Source of the DNA: an uncultured Alphaproteobacteria bacterium
GTDB lineage: Bacteria > Pseudomonadota > Alphaproteobacteria > Rs-D84
Assembly (NCBI GenBank): GCA_944389465.1
Contig: CALXML010000011.1
Location: 1-36,054, forward strand
Direction of reading: 5' to 3'
Length of the DNA stretch: 36,054 nt
In this document: in pieces, positions 25,777 through 36,054 of the stretch
How the letters are laid out: each line of letters begins with the position of its first letter
How positions within the stretch are numbered: the stretch's first letter is position 1
Notes under the pieces: model-generated
Databases searched by the model: none
What the model was told of the DNA's origin: nothing
Seen by the model: only the letters and a program-made list of their open reading frames with translations
Program-made: the position numbers and the translations under genes

Positions 25777-25805
25777 AAAAGACGGGGCAAACCCCCGTCT
25801 TTTTA
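25775..25805. terminator. Bidirectional terminator
   Basis: Stem GACGGGG/CCCCGTC flanked by A-run and T-run; serves the small-gene operon and accDA. Confidence 0.9.
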
Positions 25806-27545
25806 TTTATCTTTGGCGTCGTGTGCGGATACATATTTTTCAACACCGCGTGTCATTGCCAAAAATTTATCAGCACGGCGCGCGGATAATTCAGATGTTG
25901 GGATTTTTTGCAAATCATGAATTTCATCCGCCACGGCGTCTGCCAATGCAGTCATTGTTTGTTGCCAATCTGTGTGTGCACCACCGGATGGTTCGGTAAC
26001 TATTTTATCAATGATTTTCAAGTTTGCCATATCGTTCGCGGTTAATTTCATTGCCGCGGCCGCAGTGGCGCGAAACTTGTTATCTTTCCATAAAATACTG
26101 GCACAGGATTCAGGTGCAATAACTGAATAAATTGTATTTTCCAGCATTAACACGCGGTCGCCCGTGCCAATTGCGATTGCGCCGCCACTGCCGCCCTCGC
26201 CCACGTTGACGGCAACGTATGGTGTTTTTATATCCAATCCTGTTGCAATAGATGTGGCAATGGCCTGTGACTGGCCGCGTTCTTCGGCGGCACTGCCCGC
26301 GAATGCACCGGCGGTATCAAACAACGATATTAATGGTAATTTGAATTTTTCCGCCAATCGCATCAGGCGTTGTGCCTTGCGATAGCCTTCTGGATTGGGC
26401 ATACCAAATCTGTGCAGTTGGCGTGTTTCAATGGTGCGGCCCTTTTCCTGACCGATGATAACAGCGGGAATGTCGCGCCAATATCCAATGCCACCGCACA
26501 TGGCGGGGTCTTCGCCAAATAATCTGTCGCCGGCCAGATATGTCCAATCATCCACTATGCCATTGATATAGTCCAAGAAATGCGGACGGTTTTCATTTCG
26601 CGCCAGTAATACTTTGTCATATGCATCCGTTTCACCCATACCGCGAACCTTTTTATTGTCTGATTCAGGGGTGGTGACATTTATGGAATTTGGTGTGTGC
26701 GGCTGTTTGGTTAATACGGCCAAGATTTTTTCCAGTTTTTCCTTTAATTCATCACGCGGGACAACCATATCAACCATACCGTGTTCGTACAAATATTCCG
26801 CAGTTTGGAAATTTGACGGTAATTTTTCACGTATGTTTTGTTCAATAACACGACGACCGGCAAATCCGATACGTGCGCCCTTTTCTGCAATATGAATATC
26901 GCCCAGCATTGCGAATGACGCAGTTACACCACCGAATGTGGGGTCTGTTAATAAAACAATGTATGGAATACCGTTTGCGTGCAATTTGTTAACAGCAACA
27001 ACCGTGCGGGCCATTTGCATTAATGACAAAATGTTTTCCTGCATACGGGCACCGCCACTGCATGTGACCATAATAAATGGCTGTCGCTTTTCAATTGCGT
27101 GTTCCATACTGGCAATCATACCATCGCCAGCCGCACGGCCCATAGAACCCAACATAAAATCACCATTTAATACGCATATTGTTGTTGGTATACCGCCAAT
27201 AACACCGTCTGCGGTGGTGATTGCGTCGTTGTATCCCGTTTCAGCGCGTGCATCGGCCAAACGGTCGCTGTATGCCCTGCGGTCAACAAAGTTTAATGGG
27301 TCGTCTGATACAATTGGTAATTTCAGGCGTTCCCATTCATTGTTATCAAATAACAAATCAAAACGCTGTTTTGGGGTCATAATAAATGCACGGCCACAGC
27401 GTGGGCAAATATAATGATTTGTTTTATAATCTTTGTAATATACCAAATGACCGCACGATTCACATTTTATCCACATCAGGCGACGAATGCGGTCATACCG
27501 TTCACGATTACGGTTTTTTATGCCTGCTCGTTTTCCAAATAGCAT
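25803..27545 (-). CDS. Fused acetyl-CoA carboxylase carboxyltransferase (AccD-AccA)
   Basis: 580 aa. Residues 1 to about 290 are the beta (AccD) half with its zinc ribbon, cysteines 28, 31, 47 and 50 (CESC...CPRC), and the crotonase-fold segments MVTCSGGARMQE and LTDPTFGGVTASFA. A linker at about 295-310 leads to the alpha (AccA) half: AMCGGIGYW, VIGQEKGRTI-like, RLAEKFKLPLISLFDTAGAFAGSAAEERGQ and GEGGSGGAIAIGTGDRVLMLENTIYSVIAPE. The enzyme transfers CO2 from carboxybiotin to acetyl-CoA, the first step in fatty acid synthesis. AccA and AccD are usually separate proteins in proteobacteria, so the fusion is unusual. Its start is 1 base after the ihfB stop. Confidence 0.93.
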   Translation of the reverse strand: MLFGKRAGIKNRNRERYDRIRRLMWIKCESCGHLVYYKDYKTNHYICPRCGRAFIMTPKQRFDLLFDNNEWERLKLPIVSDDPLNFVDRRAYSDRLADARAETGYNDAITTADGVIGGIPTTICVLNGDFMLGSMGRAAGDGMIASMEHAIEKRQPFIMVTCSGGARMQENILSLMQMARTVVAVNKLHANGIPYIVLLTDPTFGGVTASFAMLGDIHIAEKGARIGFAGRRVIEQNIREKLPSNFQTAEYLYEHGMVDMVVPRDELKEKLEKILAVLTKQPHTPNSINVTTPESDNKKVRGMGETDAYDKVLLARNENRPHFLDYINGIVDDWTYLAGDRLFGEDPAMCGGIGYWRDIPAVIIGQEKGRTIETRQLHRFGMPNPEGYRKAQRLMRLAEKFKLPLISLFDTAGAFAGSAAEERGQSQAIATSIATGLDIKTPYVAVNVGEGGSGGAIAIGTGDRVLMLENTIYSVIAPESCASILWKDNKFRATAAAAMKLTANDMANLKIIDKIVTEPSGGAHTDWQQTMTALADAVADEIHDLQKIPTSELSARRADKFLAMTRGVEKYVSAHDAKDK

Positions 27546-29269: not shown

Positions 29270-29707
29270 ATGAAAAAGTTTCGTTGTTTATTTGTTTTTC
29301 TATTGCTGTCTGGGATGGGCGGATGTGCCATTGCCGATGATGTAATTCGTGATTGGGATGGTGTTTGGCAATTGAACGGCGCAGATGGTGTTTTGGGTGG
29401 CAAAATGGAAATATACAACTGTACCGACACGGAATGTGATTTTACAATACAATCGTGGTATAAACTGCATACTTGTGAAGCGAACGGTGTGATTATATTA
29501 AAAACACCGACACATGGTGTGTATAATTCAAAAAAATATATGTATGACAAATTCAAAAACTTGGAATATTTTGTTCCAGTTGGCATTCAGTTTGAATTAT
29601 TGCCAAACGGTAATCTGAACCTAGAATATAAAAATCCAGATTCAGATGGTGCATTTTGTGGTATGTCAGCCACAATTGAGGGTATGTGGATAAAACAAAA
29701 CAATTAA
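29270..29707 (+). CDS. Predicted lipoprotein or secreted protein, unknown
   Basis: 145 aa from the ATG at 29270. Signal peptide MKKFRCLFVFLLLSGMGGC with a lipobox-like GMGGC. The mature domain begins IRDWDGVWQLNG and holds a Cys-x4-Cys pair (CTDTEC) plus two more cysteines, with a lipocalin-like alternation (GVWQL...GKMEIYNC...DFTIQSWYK). It resembles small beta-barrel export proteins but no family was recognised. No ribosome-binding site. Confidence 0.7.
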   Translation: MKKFRCLFVFLLLSGMGGCAIADDVIRDWDGVWQLNGADGVLGGKMEIYNCTDTECDFTIQSWYKLHTCEANGVIILKTPTHGVYNSKKYMYDKFKNLEYFVPVGIQFELLPNGNLNLEYKNPDSDGAFCGMSATIEGMWIKQNN

Positions 29708-30246
29708 TATGATTTTGTTCGTCGTATCCAGCCGCCTTGGGCCGTTGGCCAATTTGACATAGTTTGTAATGATTGTATTCTGTTGTCTATCAGTGATTTC
29801 ATAAAATCATTTATTTTGCTGTCTGGAATTGCATTTAATGCAGTTATCGTTTGCTTGCCCAGATATCCTGTTTCAGGTAAATTGGCATTCATTTGGTCAT
29901 TTAATGTTTGTTGGATTGTTTTTGTTGGAATGATTGGACCACTCATGACACTCATGTCAAATATTGCATTTCGTATGCGTGGGTTATTTATTTGTGGTAT
30001 GTTGGTGTTATCCCAATATTCAGCTTTGTATATTTCGCGTGCTTGTTCTGGTGTTAAATCTTTTACGTCAGATGGCATATTTGACTCTGGGTGTTTTGCA
30101 GCATAACTATTCATGGTGCTTTGTGTGATACCCATATTGGTTGGTTCGTCATCAATTTGATTGCTGCCATCAGTATAACCGCCCTCGTGTTCTGCAAGTT
30201 TTTTATAAGCCATATCAAAATTTTTATCATCAGTATCGTTTTTCAT
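29704..30246 (-). CDS. GH108-like lysozyme (phage-type muramidase)
   Basis: 180 aa from the ATG at 30246 (AGAGGG 8 bases upstream; an ATG at 30267 is an alternative). The N-terminal motif LAEHEGGYTDGSNQIDDEPTNMGITQSTM carries the catalytic Glu21 of GH108, followed by REIYKAEYWD, and IRNAIFDMSVMSGP with a C-terminal peptidoglycan-binding-like region (ETGYLGKQTITALNAI). No signal peptide is visible, which suits a holin-assisted endolysin or a cytoplasmic toxin. It may be a domesticated phage gene near the edge of the accessory region. Overlaps the stop of the convergent lipoprotein gene. Confidence 0.85.
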   Translation of the reverse strand: MKNDTDDKNFDMAYKKLAEHEGGYTDGSNQIDDEPTNMGITQSTMNSYAAKHPESNMPSDVKDLTPEQAREIYKAEYWDNTNIPQINNPRIRNAIFDMSVMSGPIIPTKTIQQTLNDQMNANLPETGYLGKQTITALNAIPDSKINDFMKSLIDNRIQSLQTMSNWPTAQGGWIRRTKSY

Positions 30247-30296
30247 CGCTTCAGCCCTCTTATACATTTTGCTCTTTATCGTATTATAAATAAAAA

Positions 30297-30722: not shown

Positions 30723-31373
30723 ATGAAAAAGTCGCACATCGTCATTTCCGACATAACATGCATGAAAGAAAAGTTCTGCATCGCCGGTTTTGACACCTAT
30801 GAAAAACGTATAAAACGTCTGATGATTGACGGCGGATATTGGGACGTCGATCAGATCCCAACCACATATTGCGAAATATTGGTCGATAACGAAGATTTCA
30901 AAGAACCGCGTGATTATCCGCACCGAACTGAAGATGTAAATATAGATTTTGACTCTATTGAGGTTTTGCAAGAGTTTGAACCAGGAAAAGATCTGGCCAA
31001 TGCTTTGCGCGATAGCGTTTCAAAGGATATACAGGGCATATTTTATCATCACGTCAAGGAAAACGCCTATGTGCCCCAGAAAACCAAATGTCCTTCGTTG
31101 GGGGCCATATTGATTCCGGCTCACGATATTGAATTTTTTACAGAAGATGGTAAATTACGTGCCCGAATTACAGACTATTCCAAACAGACCTATGAATTAA
31201 AGGTCAGTTGCAAATACTTACGCGATATATTTGAAAAAGATAAAGATGTCACAAATCTGAATAATGCCGTTGCCGCCAGCCAATATGCCCATTGTCGCAT
31301 AGGTTTGGCGCGAAAGTTCCTGATGCAGGAAAATCATTGCTATTTGATGTTAAACGGGCTATTTTTGTACTGA
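30723..31373 (+). CDS. Dual OB-fold domain protein, associated with DUF488
   Basis: 216 aa from the ATG at 30723 (AAAGGAATAACT upstream). The pattern KSHIVISDITCMKEKFCIAGFD, then PHRTEDVNID, CPSLGAILIPAHDIEFF, KLRARITDYSKQTYELKV and CRIGLARKF...CYLMLNGLFLY agrees with what I recall of the dual-OB family often encoded beside DUF488 proteins. Biochemical role is not established; nucleic-acid or nucleotide binding is likely for OB folds. One base separates it from the DUF488 gene. Confidence 0.7.
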   Translation: MKKSHIVISDITCMKEKFCIAGFDTYEKRIKRLMIDGGYWDVDQIPTTYCEILVDNEDFKEPRDYPHRTEDVNIDFDSIEVLQEFEPGKDLANALRDSVSKDIQGIFYHHVKENAYVPQKTKCPSLGAILIPAHDIEFFTEDGKLRARITDYSKQTYELKVSCKYLRDIFEKDKDVTNLNNAVAASQYAHCRIGLARKFLMQENHCYLMLNGLFLY

Positions 31374-31374
31374 T

Positions 31375-31800
31375 ATGGCAAAGATTTTTACGATTGGTTT
31401 TAGCGGCAAAAAGCCCGATGATTTTATGGATATCCTGAATGTGACCCAAATAAGTTGCGTTTGGGATATCCGACTTTGGCGCACCAGCCGTTTTGTTCCG
31501 TTTTATAGCGGCACAAATTTGGCCACCGCACTGGGCAACCGATATAAATATCATCCCGAATTTGCTCCCTCGACCGAAATTCTTGCCAGATATAAAGACG
31601 GTCACATCACTTGGCCTGATTATGAACGCATGTACCGAGAATTATTGGCCACACGCCACCCGACATCGGGGTTTACTCCAGCCTATCTTGATCGTATCTG
31701 TCTGCTATGCACTGAAAAATCAGCCCTACAATGCCATCGCCGCCTTGCCGCCGAATACATCGCCGAACAATTTCCAGACATCGAAATTGTGCATTTATAA
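31375..31800 (+). CDS. DUF488-family protein
   Basis: 141 aa. Family features: IFTIGFSGKKPDDFMDIL at the start, a VWDIRLWRTSRFVPFY segment in place of the usual DVR-P-S motif, and the C-terminal CLLCTEKSALQCHRRLAAEYI with the conserved Cys-Glu and Cys-His-Arg. The cysteines suggest a metal or redox site. It lacks its own ribosome-binding site and is translationally coupled to the dual-OB gene. Members occur widely in defence and stress contexts; function is not known. Confidence 0.85.
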   Translation: MAKIFTIGFSGKKPDDFMDILNVTQISCVWDIRLWRTSRFVPFYSGTNLATALGNRYKYHPEFAPSTEILARYKDGHITWPDYERMYRELLATRHPTSGFTPAYLDRICLLCTEKSALQCHRRLAAEYIAEQFPDIEIVHL

Positions 31801-31817: not shown

Positions 31818-34800
31818 TTAATAGCCTAACTCTTCCTCTTTTGCTACTTCTTGTTTGATGCATTCGTTCAGCCAATCTAGTGAATCTTTTGCCCACATAC
31901 GAACTAGTTGATTGGGATGATCATGTAAATTCTGAAACAATGGAACATACTGTCTATAATAATCAGAAGTATTTCCCCACCAAGTAAAATTATTAATACG
32001 GGCACTAATTATATCCAAATCTTCTTTTGTTTCTGCCGAATCTATGAAATATTTTATTATCGGGCTCCAATCTATTTGCTCGTTTGAACCATCTAACAGA
32101 TTTGCAATATCGACAATACAATTCTTTACGTTCTTTTGTGTGGATTTATCAATAGATTGCAAATATGCCGGAATTTGATCATCTAAATGCTTTGAAAATA
32201 TATATGGCGACGCTCCATATTTACCATTAAATCCATCCCCCAACAAGCCCATCCATCCAGACAGCCAAATACTATCTTCTTGAGCTAGAGCCTGTAAAAC
32301 ATGTGGCAACATTATTGTTGGATGTTTTTCTATTAAATTTTTTATTGTTTCTGAAGCATAATTATTGTGCTGCAATCCGCGAGAAGTGTCTGATACAGCT
32401 GCCGTTTTAAAAGCATCAAAAATAGTTGATGCCTCTTCTGGGCTCCAATCTATTTTGTGAATAACGTTACTTACATGGTGCCCACTCATAGGATCTTTAA
32501 AAACAAATAGTATATTTTCTGTCTTTGCTAAGATAGCAAATATCAATTTCTTGCAATCTTCTGATAAGGCTTTACCGCTATGCTGGTAATAATCCAGCGT
32601 TTCTATAATAAACTGACAAGACTCTGTTCCGAATGTATTGTATACCGTCTGCAAGAAATTTATAACTTGTTCTATATCAACAGAATTTTTAAGATTAATA
32701 CTGAGGCCACCAATTTGTAATTGTAACAACGAAATTTTTTCCTGTGATATCAATTCTAATATACTATCTATATCAGACTCTAAAAATCTACCATGAACAA
32801 CCCAAATAAGCCTAATAACTCCATTTTTAGCTACCCATCTTTCATCCCGAAGAATCCCTGTTAAGATACTGTCTATATAAGAAGGATCTCGTTTCCATAT
32901 TTCGTGCATAGCGACAGCGAGCAATGAATAATTATCATTATCCGTCGCCATATGTAAAGCCATCAAACGATTTACAAACTCTTTATAATCCGCTATACAA
33001 GAGCCTATTCTGGATGCAAAATCATTAATATTTCCGGCGTTTTTACTTATAAAAAACGGCAATGAATTGTATAAATGTTCTGTATTGGCTAAATATGCGT
33101 CTGCAATTTCTTCCGATTTCTGCTTCATCAAAGAATGCGCATGTTTAAAATCTAGCTTGTCTTCTGTTTCCATAAAATACGCAACATCCCATTCTGATGG
33201 GACTATATAAAGCTCAAACAATGATTCTAGGTCTCTATCAGCTTTCGCCAGAAGCCTGTCTCTATACTCTATTAGTTTTTCAAAACCCTTGTCAGTATTA
33301 AAACGTGAATTTGCTACAAAAGTCGATACATAATCCGGAAATTTTTCCAACAGAGAAGAAACTAATGGCTTATACTTTTCAAACAGGCTATTCATCAATA
33401 GAGGGTTGGTTTTATTACCAATAATCTTCAGCAACTCTTTTTTTAGCTCATCATCGGCAGTATTGTTTATCTCCAGCAATATATTTCCCAACATATCAAA
33501 ATATGTCCCTACTTCTGACCATGTTTTTGGGGTGTAATATTTTAAAGTCCTTGCGCCTTGAGATTCCGCCCCAGCCATACAACTATAATGACCGCCATTA
33601 TCCAAGCCTTTATCTATCATCTTTAAGATTATATCTTTCCCTTGTTGGAATTCTGGAATTAAAGATCGCAGCCAATTGGCACGTTGTTCCAATGATGCTT
33701 CTGTCGGCGCAAGAAAAACTTGCATTGTTTGAATCAAAACACCTGTTGCATTATTTCCAATACTCTCATTTTCTCCTTTTGCTAATCTGAACAAAAGCGC
33801 TGCTGCTCTTTCATACAAATCTTTATGAAACATTATTTTTTCTAATGTCCACACTATGCGTCTACGATGCTCAGTGAGCTTATCTCTCATATCATCATCT
33901 GTCCATCCATCAAACGCATACTCTAATGATTTCATTGCCAAGTCTGGTGCAATTTCAGCAAATTGGCCGAACAGCTCATTACTTGGCGAATTAAGCAATT
34001 CGGCATTAGAAAAAGGGGATGTCTTGTCTCCGATAAAAGATTTTACAAATTCACTAACATTATCTAAATATTTTATTTTTTTCATAAAACGCTCTTGCAA
34101 AGCAAATGGTAACGCTTTGTAATATCTATTGACTATATCTGGATGCGTTTTTTCGTTCCACTTTCTTGCCAAATGAACCGCTAACGGGAACGGTTGAACG
34201 GAAATAGAAAATCCTTTTTGTTGTATTATTTTACGTTCACGAAATTCATTATAAACTTCAAAAACTTCATTCTTATCAAGTTCAAATACATCTATTATCT
34301 TATCTATCTCGTTTGGGTCTGCAAGCTCCCTACCTGCATATCCGCGACAGGTCCCAGACATTCCCGGCCGACAACCTATTTTAGTAAACAGTGACAAAAT
34401 CATAAGAATTTTTATTTTTGATGGCTCGTATTTACCTGTTCGATCTCTCAAAAGCAATTTATATATGTCTGCATCATGAAAACGGCCCAATTTGACAGTT
34501 TCACCTCTTGACAAGGAGTCTTTAATTTCTTGCGCGATATGTATAGCAAATCGTGGGAACCCATCTGCAGCATTAACTACAGCAGCTTGCGTATGTTCTT
34601 CTAGCTCTGGTGCAACCTGTCTAACAATATCCGCAACTACTTCATTAGATAATTTATTAAATTTTAATTCTTCCGACCTGTCATATGAATCATAATCTAT
34701 TGTAACTAAAGTAATTTGGCCTCCAGAAATAATTCGTTTAATCGCTTGTAGCTCATCTTTGTCACATTCATCAATAATTAATATAAACGGCTTATTTTGA

Positions 34801-35588
34801 TCTAATGTTCTCAGAAACGGCATTAAAAAAATTAGTTCACATTTAGGCACATAAATTATTCTTCTTTGGTCTTCTTTGTGCATACGATTACAGGCTTCCA
34901 AAACAGTACGTGTTTTTCCTATTCCTGCCAAGCCACTAATATTAGATACTGGATTTTGTAATATACGATCTTTTATCTCTTCGACAAAAGAATTTAGTTT
35001 ATCATCTAATTGAAACTTATTTATGCCATCTCTAGTGTTCCATTCATCAAGAGATTCGGCCCCAACTTTAAGCCATGCATCTCTCAAATCCGGTTTTAAA
35101 TCAAAGATTACATCTTGATGTAAATTTACCCAATTCTGCACATCTTCCGCATCCAGAAACACTGCTGTTGTTTTCCTCGCCCCAATTTCATTTAATGCAT
35201 ATTTCATTGCGTTCAAACGAGCTTCTTTAAGTTGTGATGGAATATGATCTTTTGTCGAAACAATAACAAAATCATAGCCTGCTAACAATTTTTTACGCAA
35301 TGCTATATGGGCATCACTACTTATTTCGCTGCCACATTGAGCTGGGGACATGCTTGTTGCTTTTAATTGAAAGATTGTTTGAGTTGACGGAATAAACTTA
35401 TCTAGCACAGTTTTTATTTTACCATGTAAAATGGCATCTATTCCTCCGTCTCCAACTGTATCATTGGAACAAACATCAAATTCACAAGGTTTGAATCCTT
35501 CTGCCAATAACAGCTGTTTTGTAAGCCTGGTCAGTTCCTTATCATTTAAATTCTTAATAGTATTGATATCTATTTCATAGTATCTCAT
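31818..35588 (-). CDS. Mrr-like nuclease + STAND NTPase, Avs-like defence protein
   Basis: 1256 aa from the ATG at 35588 (GAGGAAATAT upstream). N-terminus (about 1-160): Mrr-type PD-(D/E)XK nuclease with GDGGID (46-51) and the QLK variant of ExK (74-76). Next a STAND NTPase with Walker A GLAGIGKT (219-226), Walker B FILIIDECD (268-276) and a winged-helix-like region. The last about 750 residues are all helical, consistent with TPR/HEAT-like sensor repeats. This nuclease-STAND-repeat order is that of Avs antiphage sensors, especially the Mrr-bearing type. Function as defence is inference. Convergent with the DUF488 gene; its own promoter faces RNA D. Confidence 0.85.
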   Translation of the reverse strand: MRYYEIDINTIKNLNDKELTRLTKQLLLAEGFKPCEFDVCSNDTVGDGGIDAILHGKIKTVLDKFIPSTQTIFQLKATSMSPAQCGSEISSDAHIALRKKLLAGYDFVIVSTKDHIPSQLKEARLNAMKYALNEIGARKTTAVFLDAEDVQNWVNLHQDVIFDLKPDLRDAWLKVGAESLDEWNTRDGINKFQLDDKLNSFVEEIKDRILQNPVSNISGLAGIGKTRTVLEACNRMHKEDQRRIIYVPKCELIFLMPFLRTLDQNKPFILIIDECDKDELQAIKRIISGGQITLVTIDYDSYDRSEELKFNKLSNEVVADIVRQVAPELEEHTQAAVVNAADGFPRFAIHIAQEIKDSLSRGETVKLGRFHDADIYKLLLRDRTGKYEPSKIKILMILSLFTKIGCRPGMSGTCRGYAGRELADPNEIDKIIDVFELDKNEVFEVYNEFRERKIIQQKGFSISVQPFPLAVHLARKWNEKTHPDIVNRYYKALPFALQERFMKKIKYLDNVSEFVKSFIGDKTSPFSNAELLNSPSNELFGQFAEIAPDLAMKSLEYAFDGWTDDDMRDKLTEHRRRIVWTLEKIMFHKDLYERAAALLFRLAKGENESIGNNATGVLIQTMQVFLAPTEASLEQRANWLRSLIPEFQQGKDIILKMIDKGLDNGGHYSCMAGAESQGARTLKYYTPKTWSEVGTYFDMLGNILLEINNTADDELKKELLKIIGNKTNPLLMNSLFEKYKPLVSSLLEKFPDYVSTFVANSRFNTDKGFEKLIEYRDRLLAKADRDLESLFELYIVPSEWDVAYFMETEDKLDFKHAHSLMKQKSEEIADAYLANTEHLYNSLPFFISKNAGNINDFASRIGSCIADYKEFVNRLMALHMATDNDNYSLLAVAMHEIWKRDPSYIDSILTGILRDERWVAKNGVIRLIWVVHGRFLESDIDSILELISQEKISLLQLQIGGLSINLKNSVDIEQVINFLQTVYNTFGTESCQFIIETLDYYQHSGKALSEDCKKLIFAILAKTENILFVFKDPMSGHHVSNVIHKIDWSPEEASTIFDAFKTAAVSDTSRGLQHNNYASETIKNLIEKHPTIMLPHVLQALAQEDSIWLSGWMGLLGDGFNGKYGASPYIFSKHLDDQIPAYLQSIDKSTQKNVKNCIVDIANLLDGSNEQIDWSPIIKYFIDSAETKEDLDIISARINNFTWWGNTSDYYRQYVPLFQNLHDHPNQLVRMWAKDSLDWLNECIKQEVAKEEELGY

Positions 35589-35620
35589 ATATTTCCTCGA
35601 CAAAAATTCATTATATAATT

Positions 35621-35650
35621 AGTATATACAATATAAAGTTCTAAAATCAA
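35621..35650 (-). promoter_or_regulatory. Promoter of the Mrr-STAND gene
   Basis: Minus strand TTGATT (35650-35645), 18 bases, TATACT (35626-35621). Predicted start about 35614, leader about 26 bases with GAGGAAA. Confidence 0.55.
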
Positions 35651-35666
35651 GACATTAACAATAAAC

Positions 35667-35695
35667 TTGATTTACTTTGTTTATCACGATACACT
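35667..35695 (+). promoter_or_regulatory. Promoter of structured RNA D
   Basis: TTGATT (35667-35672), 17 bases, TACACT (35690-35695). Predicted start about 35702, at the first base of the GAATCC hairpin. Confidence 0.6.
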
Positions 35696-35701
35696 CCCCT
35701 T

Positions 35702-35904
35702 GAATCCAATGGGAATTGGGTTCGGGGCTGTGGTGGCCCGCAGACGCGGCAAGTAGTATAATAATTATTATGTCGTTAAACTCCCCCGACTGAGGTCGGG
35801 GAGCCGTTTTGCTATAAAACAGGGCTTTGCCTGAAGGCTGCGGAGCATTCGTTTGCTGACACCAACTCCCCGACCGTCAATTTCATTGGCGGTCATTAAT
35901 TTAT
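35702..35904 (+). ncRNA. Structured RNA D (new family with A and C)
   Basis: 5' hairpin GAATCC/GGGTTC (35702-35723). Closing stem pairs GGGG, TGGTG, GCAGACG (35724-35746) with CGTTTGC, CACCA, CCCC (35850-35871). Internal hairpins include CTCCC-CGAC/GTCG-GGGAG (35781-35803) and GTTTT/AAAAC (about 35806-35819). The 3' end is a 10-bp stem GACCGTCAAT/ATTGGCGGTC (35872-35894) followed by ATTAATTTAT. Same order of parts as RNA C but with nearly all stem bases changed. No ORF fits; most of the 466-base stretch after the Mrr-STAND start is this RNA. Confidence 0.8.
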
Positions 35905-35906
35905 AA

Positions 35907-36054
35907 AAACAGGGAATTGGTGTGGATATTACAAAATCTATTGTTTCGGCATTTATAAACCTGCAGCAAAAACATCGTTTTTTGTATCAGAGGCGGATTT
36001 TCAGGCATCTTTTACCTGGGAACTGATGCAGGTATTTCAAGATCGCCCAGACGT
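35907..36054 (+). pseudogene. Possible truncated or frame-broken ORF at window edge
   Basis: After RNA D one frame reads QGIGVDITKSIVSAFINL and stops near 36024; the overlapping frame is open to the window end (YYKIYCFGIYKPAAKTSFF... VSEADFQASFTWELMQVF). GVDITK resembles the start of IS110-type DEDD transposases. Either a remnant with a frameshift or chance; the window ends too soon to tell. Confidence 0.3.

Follow-up and report, generated by a model that had tools for sequence, protein, structure and literature searches.

The window analysed here is a whole contig of 36,054 bp from a 99%-complete genome of 0.95 Mb, and towards its right end it carries, on the minus strand at 31818–35588, a gene for an Mrr-STAND-HEAT protein of 1256 aa. 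The open reading frame is real and intact, with zero internal stops over its full length, and the layout proposed for it in the first-pass annotation, a nuclease followed by a STAND NTPase and a long helical C-terminus, was borne out. A Shine-Dalgarno sequence, GAGGAA (35593–35598, minus strand), lies 4 nt upstream of the ATG at 35588, and a candidate sigma-70-like promoter, TTTATA-16-TATAAT (35610–35637, minus strand), was recognised by consensus match only, at 10/12 positions. The contig end lies 466 bp from the gene start, and the upstream view covers those 466 bp. On its other side the gene faces a convergent DUF488 gene (31375–31800, plus strand), which matches the PADLOC candidate PDC-M45C, and a dual OB-fold (DuOB) gene (30723–31373, plus strand; PF22557, E=2.8e-5).

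The N-terminal effector, residues 1–165 (35094–35588, minus strand), is a PD-(D/E)xK/Mrr-type nuclease domain according to the structural model, a weak Mrr_cat match and its conserved residues. It contains a DGGID motif (residues 47–51; 35436–35450, minus strand) and a QLK motif (residues 74–76; 35361–35369, minus strand), in which QxK replaces ExK. In the model of residues 1–500, the order of helices (H) and strands (E) is H16–29, E37–39, E52–55, E70–76, H82–90, E106–111, H118–134 and E142–145, which gives an alpha-beta-beta-beta-alpha-beta core with D51 opening the second strand and QxK within the third. Motifs and secondary structure together correspond to the D...(E/Q)xK core of Mrr-type nucleases (PF04471), and the conserved residues of the domain in the homologue alignment are E30, D47, D51, Q74, K76 and E88. 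With the isolated domain, Pfam Mrr_cat gave E=0.0043 and 17.6 bits, below its gathering threshold of 21, and PDB profile searches with the nuclease domain alone returned chance matches only. Since the sequence profile by itself is weak, the Mrr label is based on the motif, the order of the modelled core and the structural alignment to Avs4. The DGGxD...QxK motif is shared with Mrr-type restriction endonucleases, whereas here the nuclease is fused to a STAND switch and the Pfam match is sub-threshold.

The STAND NTPase core occupies about residues 196–385 (34434–35003, minus strand), as delineated by weak nSTAND_NTPase5 and AAA_16 matches, PDB profile matches and the model. Its Walker A motif is GLAGIGKTR (residues 219–227; 34908–34934, minus strand), with an invariant G..G.GK.R pattern, and its Walker B motif is ILIIDEC (residues 269–275; 34764–34784, minus strand), with DNC in many homologues. 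A winged-helix-like region with a P.PLA motif follows at about residues 386–490 (34119–34433, minus strand), as seen in the model and the alignment. The PDB profile matches for the NTPase were the NB-ARC domains of NRC3, NRC1 and APAF-1; these, the Walker motifs and the modelled NLR-like NTPase fold with its winged helix identify a STAND module. On profile search, the names STAND and Mrr given in the first-pass annotation found matches, including STAND-type NB-ARC profiles of the PDB, whereas the STAND models of Pfam, like Mrr_cat, matched below cut-off only. The STAND/NB-ARC switch fold is shared with plant and animal NLRs and apoptosome NTPases (NRC1, RPP1, APAF-1, CED-4); however, the effector here is a nuclease, and kinship is not evident beyond the NTPase.

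The model of residues 1–500 (pLDDT 83.5, pTM 0.77) arranges the nuclease, the NTPase and the winged helix in this order, and the N-terminal half has an Avs-like fold. By using Foldseek against the PDB, the top match for these residues was Avs3 (8dgc, E 2.7e-9), and Avs4 (8dgf, E 1.9e-7) came seventh, amid plant NLRs and RuvB/RFC ATPases. VIA-align paired model residues 5–492 with residues 2–500 of Avs4 (8dgf_B, 407 residues, Z 10.4, rmsd 10.3), and Avs4 was the sole chain matched from the nuclease through the winged helix among the VIA-align matches listed. The high rmsd is as expected if the modelled domains are rotated relative to one another.

From about residue 491 to residue 1256 (31821–34118, minus strand), the AlphaFold2 model and fold matches outline a HEAT-like helical-repeat arm of ~770 aa, the presumed sensor. 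The model of residues 385–1256 (pLDDT 82, pTM 0.58) is almost entirely a helical superhelix, and its best matches were importins, CAND1, SF3B1 and the PP2A-A scaffold, with Z values of 9–12 that are only moderate for helical repeats. As modelled, the C-terminus looks like HEAT/importin-type repeats. The least conserved stretch of the whole protein in the homologue alignment falls within this arm, at residues 901–1100, as one might expect for a recognition surface. A different way of sensing infection would be that the nuclease itself reads modified or foreign DNA, like Mrr and type IV enzymes, with the STAND module merely gating it. The Mrr-type DGGxD...QxK motif points to such a nucleic-acid sensor, but no DNA-modification reader domain was recognised in the protein and the large arm is similar to superhelices that bind proteins, among them importins, CAND1 and PP2A-A, so that this option appears unlikely and a phage product bound by the arm is the preferred reading.

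To gather relatives of the protein, plasmids were searched with tblastn, genome and viral contigs were scanned under the guidance of a profile, and 385 same-class genomes were added. The class is Alphaproteobacteria, since two genomes in it encode proteins identical to ones from Thalassobaculum sp. OXR-137 and Rhodospirillaceae bacterium SYSU D60007; the genus may be Candidatus Enterousia (order Rs-D84). A single-protein scan of genome contigs found zero relatives, which emerged only with the alignment-based scan. The Mrr-STAND-HEAT clade spans bacteria (Pseudomonadota, Bacillota, Bacteroidota, Cyanobacteriota, Nitrospirota, Thermodesulfobacteriota, Patescibacteria and Leptospira), archaea (haloarchaea), plasmids, which carry many of the homologues, and one viral contig; annotated phage genomes contained no relative. 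Nearly every homologue record examined is annotated as 'hypothetical protein', and NCBIfam offers no usable family name. The homologue on the viral contig (IMG/VR, L065:620-4486) is full-length, and phage or prophage may therefore carry this type of defence. In Haloarcula marina, the homologue (L005:6001-9778) consists of two overlapping ORFs, one with nuclease and NTPase and the other with the rest, which reflects a frameshift or, alternatively, a form made of two genes.

An alignment was built from 41 full-length proteins, the query and 40 others from bacteria and archaea, the latter at 17–23% identity to the query. Thirteen positions are identical in 41/41: D47, G48, G49, D51, Q74, K76, G219, G222, G224, K225, R227, D273 and C275. 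The first-pass annotation had singled out D47, K76 and K225, and all three are correctly placed. Because genome and viral contig homologues were recruited via the DGGxD pattern, the alignment overstates how conserved this motif is, but the plasmid and E. coli homologues, recruited without the pattern, still keep it.

The closest named family is PD-λ-4. The PADLOC model PD-Lambda-4_A (PDLC03991) matches residues 2–727 of the protein (E=1.6e-44) and the N-terminal halves of 29/29 homologues, and in a full-length relative from Pseudanabaena (L003) the match extends over residues 5–1245. Component A of E. coli PD-λ-4 (WP_000963924.1; L126:6001-9852; 1283 aa) matches the same model end to end with 2531 bits. 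BLASTP aligned the query to E. coli A with 22% identity over 775 residues (E=3e-29), and every catalytic residue of the query is also present in E. coli A. The two proteins thus agree in domain order, length (1283 vs 1256 aa), catalytic residues and family profile, whereas they share only 18–22% identity, lie on opposite sides of a deep split and differ in the B gene, which was not found here. In the tree, E. coli A and seven plasmid proteins from Proteobacteria and Leptospira form a clade of eight (support 100, branch 1.2), and the query stands outside it on a single branch of 2.19, whose length makes its exact place unsure. Phage-resistance selection of E. coli library clones yielded 21 systems, among them PD-λ-4 (PMC9519451), for which no mechanism was found in that account; a review lists it merely as a P-loop NTPase (PMC10952713). 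Judged by sequence, the protein is a member of the PD-λ-4 A family and not of Avs1–5; within this known defence family it is a divergent form that stands alone.

This assignment divides the Avs-type architecture that had been proposed for the locus into a part that holds and a part that does not. After sensing conserved proteins of a phage, Avs1–4 cut both phage and host DNA, and their tripartite layout is effector, STAND NTPase and C-terminal repeat sensor (PMC12931631). Models and motifs show the same layout here, and the effector and NTPase match Avs in structure by both Foldseek and VIA-align. The likeness to Avs4 and Avs3 (AVAST; PDB 8dgf and 8dgc) therefore comprises an N-terminal nuclease, a STAND NTPase and a long helical-repeat C-terminus, with a structural match across residues 5–492 of the model, whereas a sequence relation is not detectable and the C-terminus, compared with the TPR-type sensor of Avs, has HEAT/importin-like proteins as its best matches. 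Avs3, Avs4 and Avs5 were not among the PDB sequences recovered with family profiles at E≤10, no Avs chain was among the matches listed for the model of residues 385–1256, and no Avs model was among the PADLOC matches of the query and 29 homologue N-terminal halves, from a library whose Avs content had no positive control. The claim of an Avs type is thereby retained for the architecture and the N-terminal fold and given up for the sequence family, and the structural comparison expected to link the protein to Avs did so for the N-terminal half. The name 'Avs' suits the design and not the family, and the working mode is likely Avs-like.

PD-λ-4 of E. coli is a two-gene system, and at the E. coli locus A is followed 45 bp downstream by B (L126:9898-10644). 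In the window this position is occupied by DUF488; component B had no match within the window, nor in the source genome, in a search that did not include a positive-control genome. Among the homologue loci examined, B was found only at those of E. coli, PADLOC scans of ten homologue neighbourhoods recovered no B component, and each neighbouring gene family occurred at 4 or fewer of the 51 homologue loci. A conserved partner is lacking, and because B is confined to the E. coli loci, the single-gene form looks typical outside the E. coli branch and B looks like an addition within it. That the gene is instead one half, now degenerate, of a PD-λ-4 gene pair, for which defence would be impossible without component B, is suggested by the A plus B arrangement in E. 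coli and the missing B match in window and genome; this is improbable, as the ORF is intact with all catalytic residues retained and the homologue loci outside E. coli have neither a B match nor another recurring partner.

The neighbouring DuOB-DUF488 pair was also considered. The stop codons of DUF488 and the STAND gene are convergent and only 17 bp apart, and DUF488 matches a PADLOC defence candidate, which would fit one joint system with the STAND gene. However, the pair is convergent to the STAND gene, and in other species of the genus DUF488 or DuOB-DUF488 is present without it and with different cargo, so that such a system is very improbable; DUF488 and DuOB were rejected as partner genes because of their presence in sister species that have no STAND gene. 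DuOB adjoins DUF488 in sister species too, and in other species DUF488 stands in different settings. A second, truncated DuOB-DUF488 copy was noted at L109:4123-4909 (G000 contig C2), beside pieces of the structured flank element described below.

The STAND gene, read as a stand-alone receptor, occupies a cargo slot whose left border is DuOB and whose right border is a conserved, strongly structured flank at 35650–35932 (no strand assigned), recognised from sister-species DNA identity and RNA fold. The conserved flank reaches the contig end (35650–36054) and is 83–86% identical in DNA in two sister species, past different cargo. Both borders are kept in two congeners: one (L108:6893-9964) holds Gabija-like GajA and GajB between them (PADLOC, 2e-157 and 1e-114), and the other (L104:8256-11181) holds cll-like, beta-like and M78-peptidase genes with a membrane protein. 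Because the borders are kept and the cargo differs, at least three species have a slot for defence cargo at this position. The gene itself is AT-rich with deviant codon use (GC 0.351 and GC3 0.271, vs 0.39–0.46 and 0.35–0.43 among the window's long chromosomal genes) and is absent from the 58 relatives searched, 34 of them of the same genus. These data support recent acquisition, with the gene as one of the interchangeable cargoes of a defence hotspot, in agreement with the newly acquired look that had been attributed to this DNA.

Taken as a whole, the PD-Lambda-4_A match, the catalytic residues kept in all 41 proteins, the Avs and NLR folds, the HEAT arm, the Gabija-holding slot and the foreign composition argue that the gene, recently acquired as defence-hotspot cargo, probably specifies an NLR-like anti-phage receptor that belongs to the PD-λ-4A family and acts as a single protein. 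By analogy, we infer that it would sense a phage protein, oligomerise, act on DNA and have an anti-phage outcome. At rest, the HEAT arm would keep the nucleotide-bound STAND switch closed; binding of a phage product to the arm would lead the switch to exchange its nucleotide; the switched protein would then oligomerise and bring the N-terminal PD-(D/E)xK (DGGxD...QxK) nuclease domains together; and the assembled domains would cut DNA of the phage, and probably of the host, thereby stopping infection. A role outside defence, as a STAND regulator or as a nuclease in plasmid control, would accord with the many homologues on plasmids and with bacterial STAND proteins that are transcription regulators (PMC7159879). 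It is quite improbable, since the nuclease active site is conserved across 41 proteins, PD-λ-4 came from a phage selection (PMC9519451) and the hotspot holds Gabija cargo in a sister species.

The wider reading, in which the whole widespread and typically B-less clade consists of Avs-like immune receptors with a HEAT sensor that rotate through the DuOB-DUF488-bordered slot in this genus, has about an even chance of being right. Reading PD-λ-4 A as an Mrr-STAND-HEAT receptor offers a testable mechanism with named residues and a broad family in which to search for triggers, and a genome of less than 1 Mb is seen to retain a slot for the exchange of large defence genes.

Other features of the window were recorded. 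The right border contains a strongly structured element at 35690–35905 (RNA fold z = -4.3), conserved at this border in three species; short pieces of it recur elsewhere in the source genome, Rfam gave no match for it, and it may be either a non-coding RNA or the end of a mobile element. Megablast of the right part of the window against E. coli gave no match. At 35935–36054 lies the start of a flank gene whose 231-aa product is intact in L108:10543-11238; near the contig end its frame shifts, which reflects a real frameshift or an assembly error. Near the defence slot there is a phage-endolysin-like glycosyl hydrolase 108 gene (29704–30267), and at 25803–27545 the beta and alpha subunits of acetyl-CoA carboxyltransferase are fused into one 580-aa protein.
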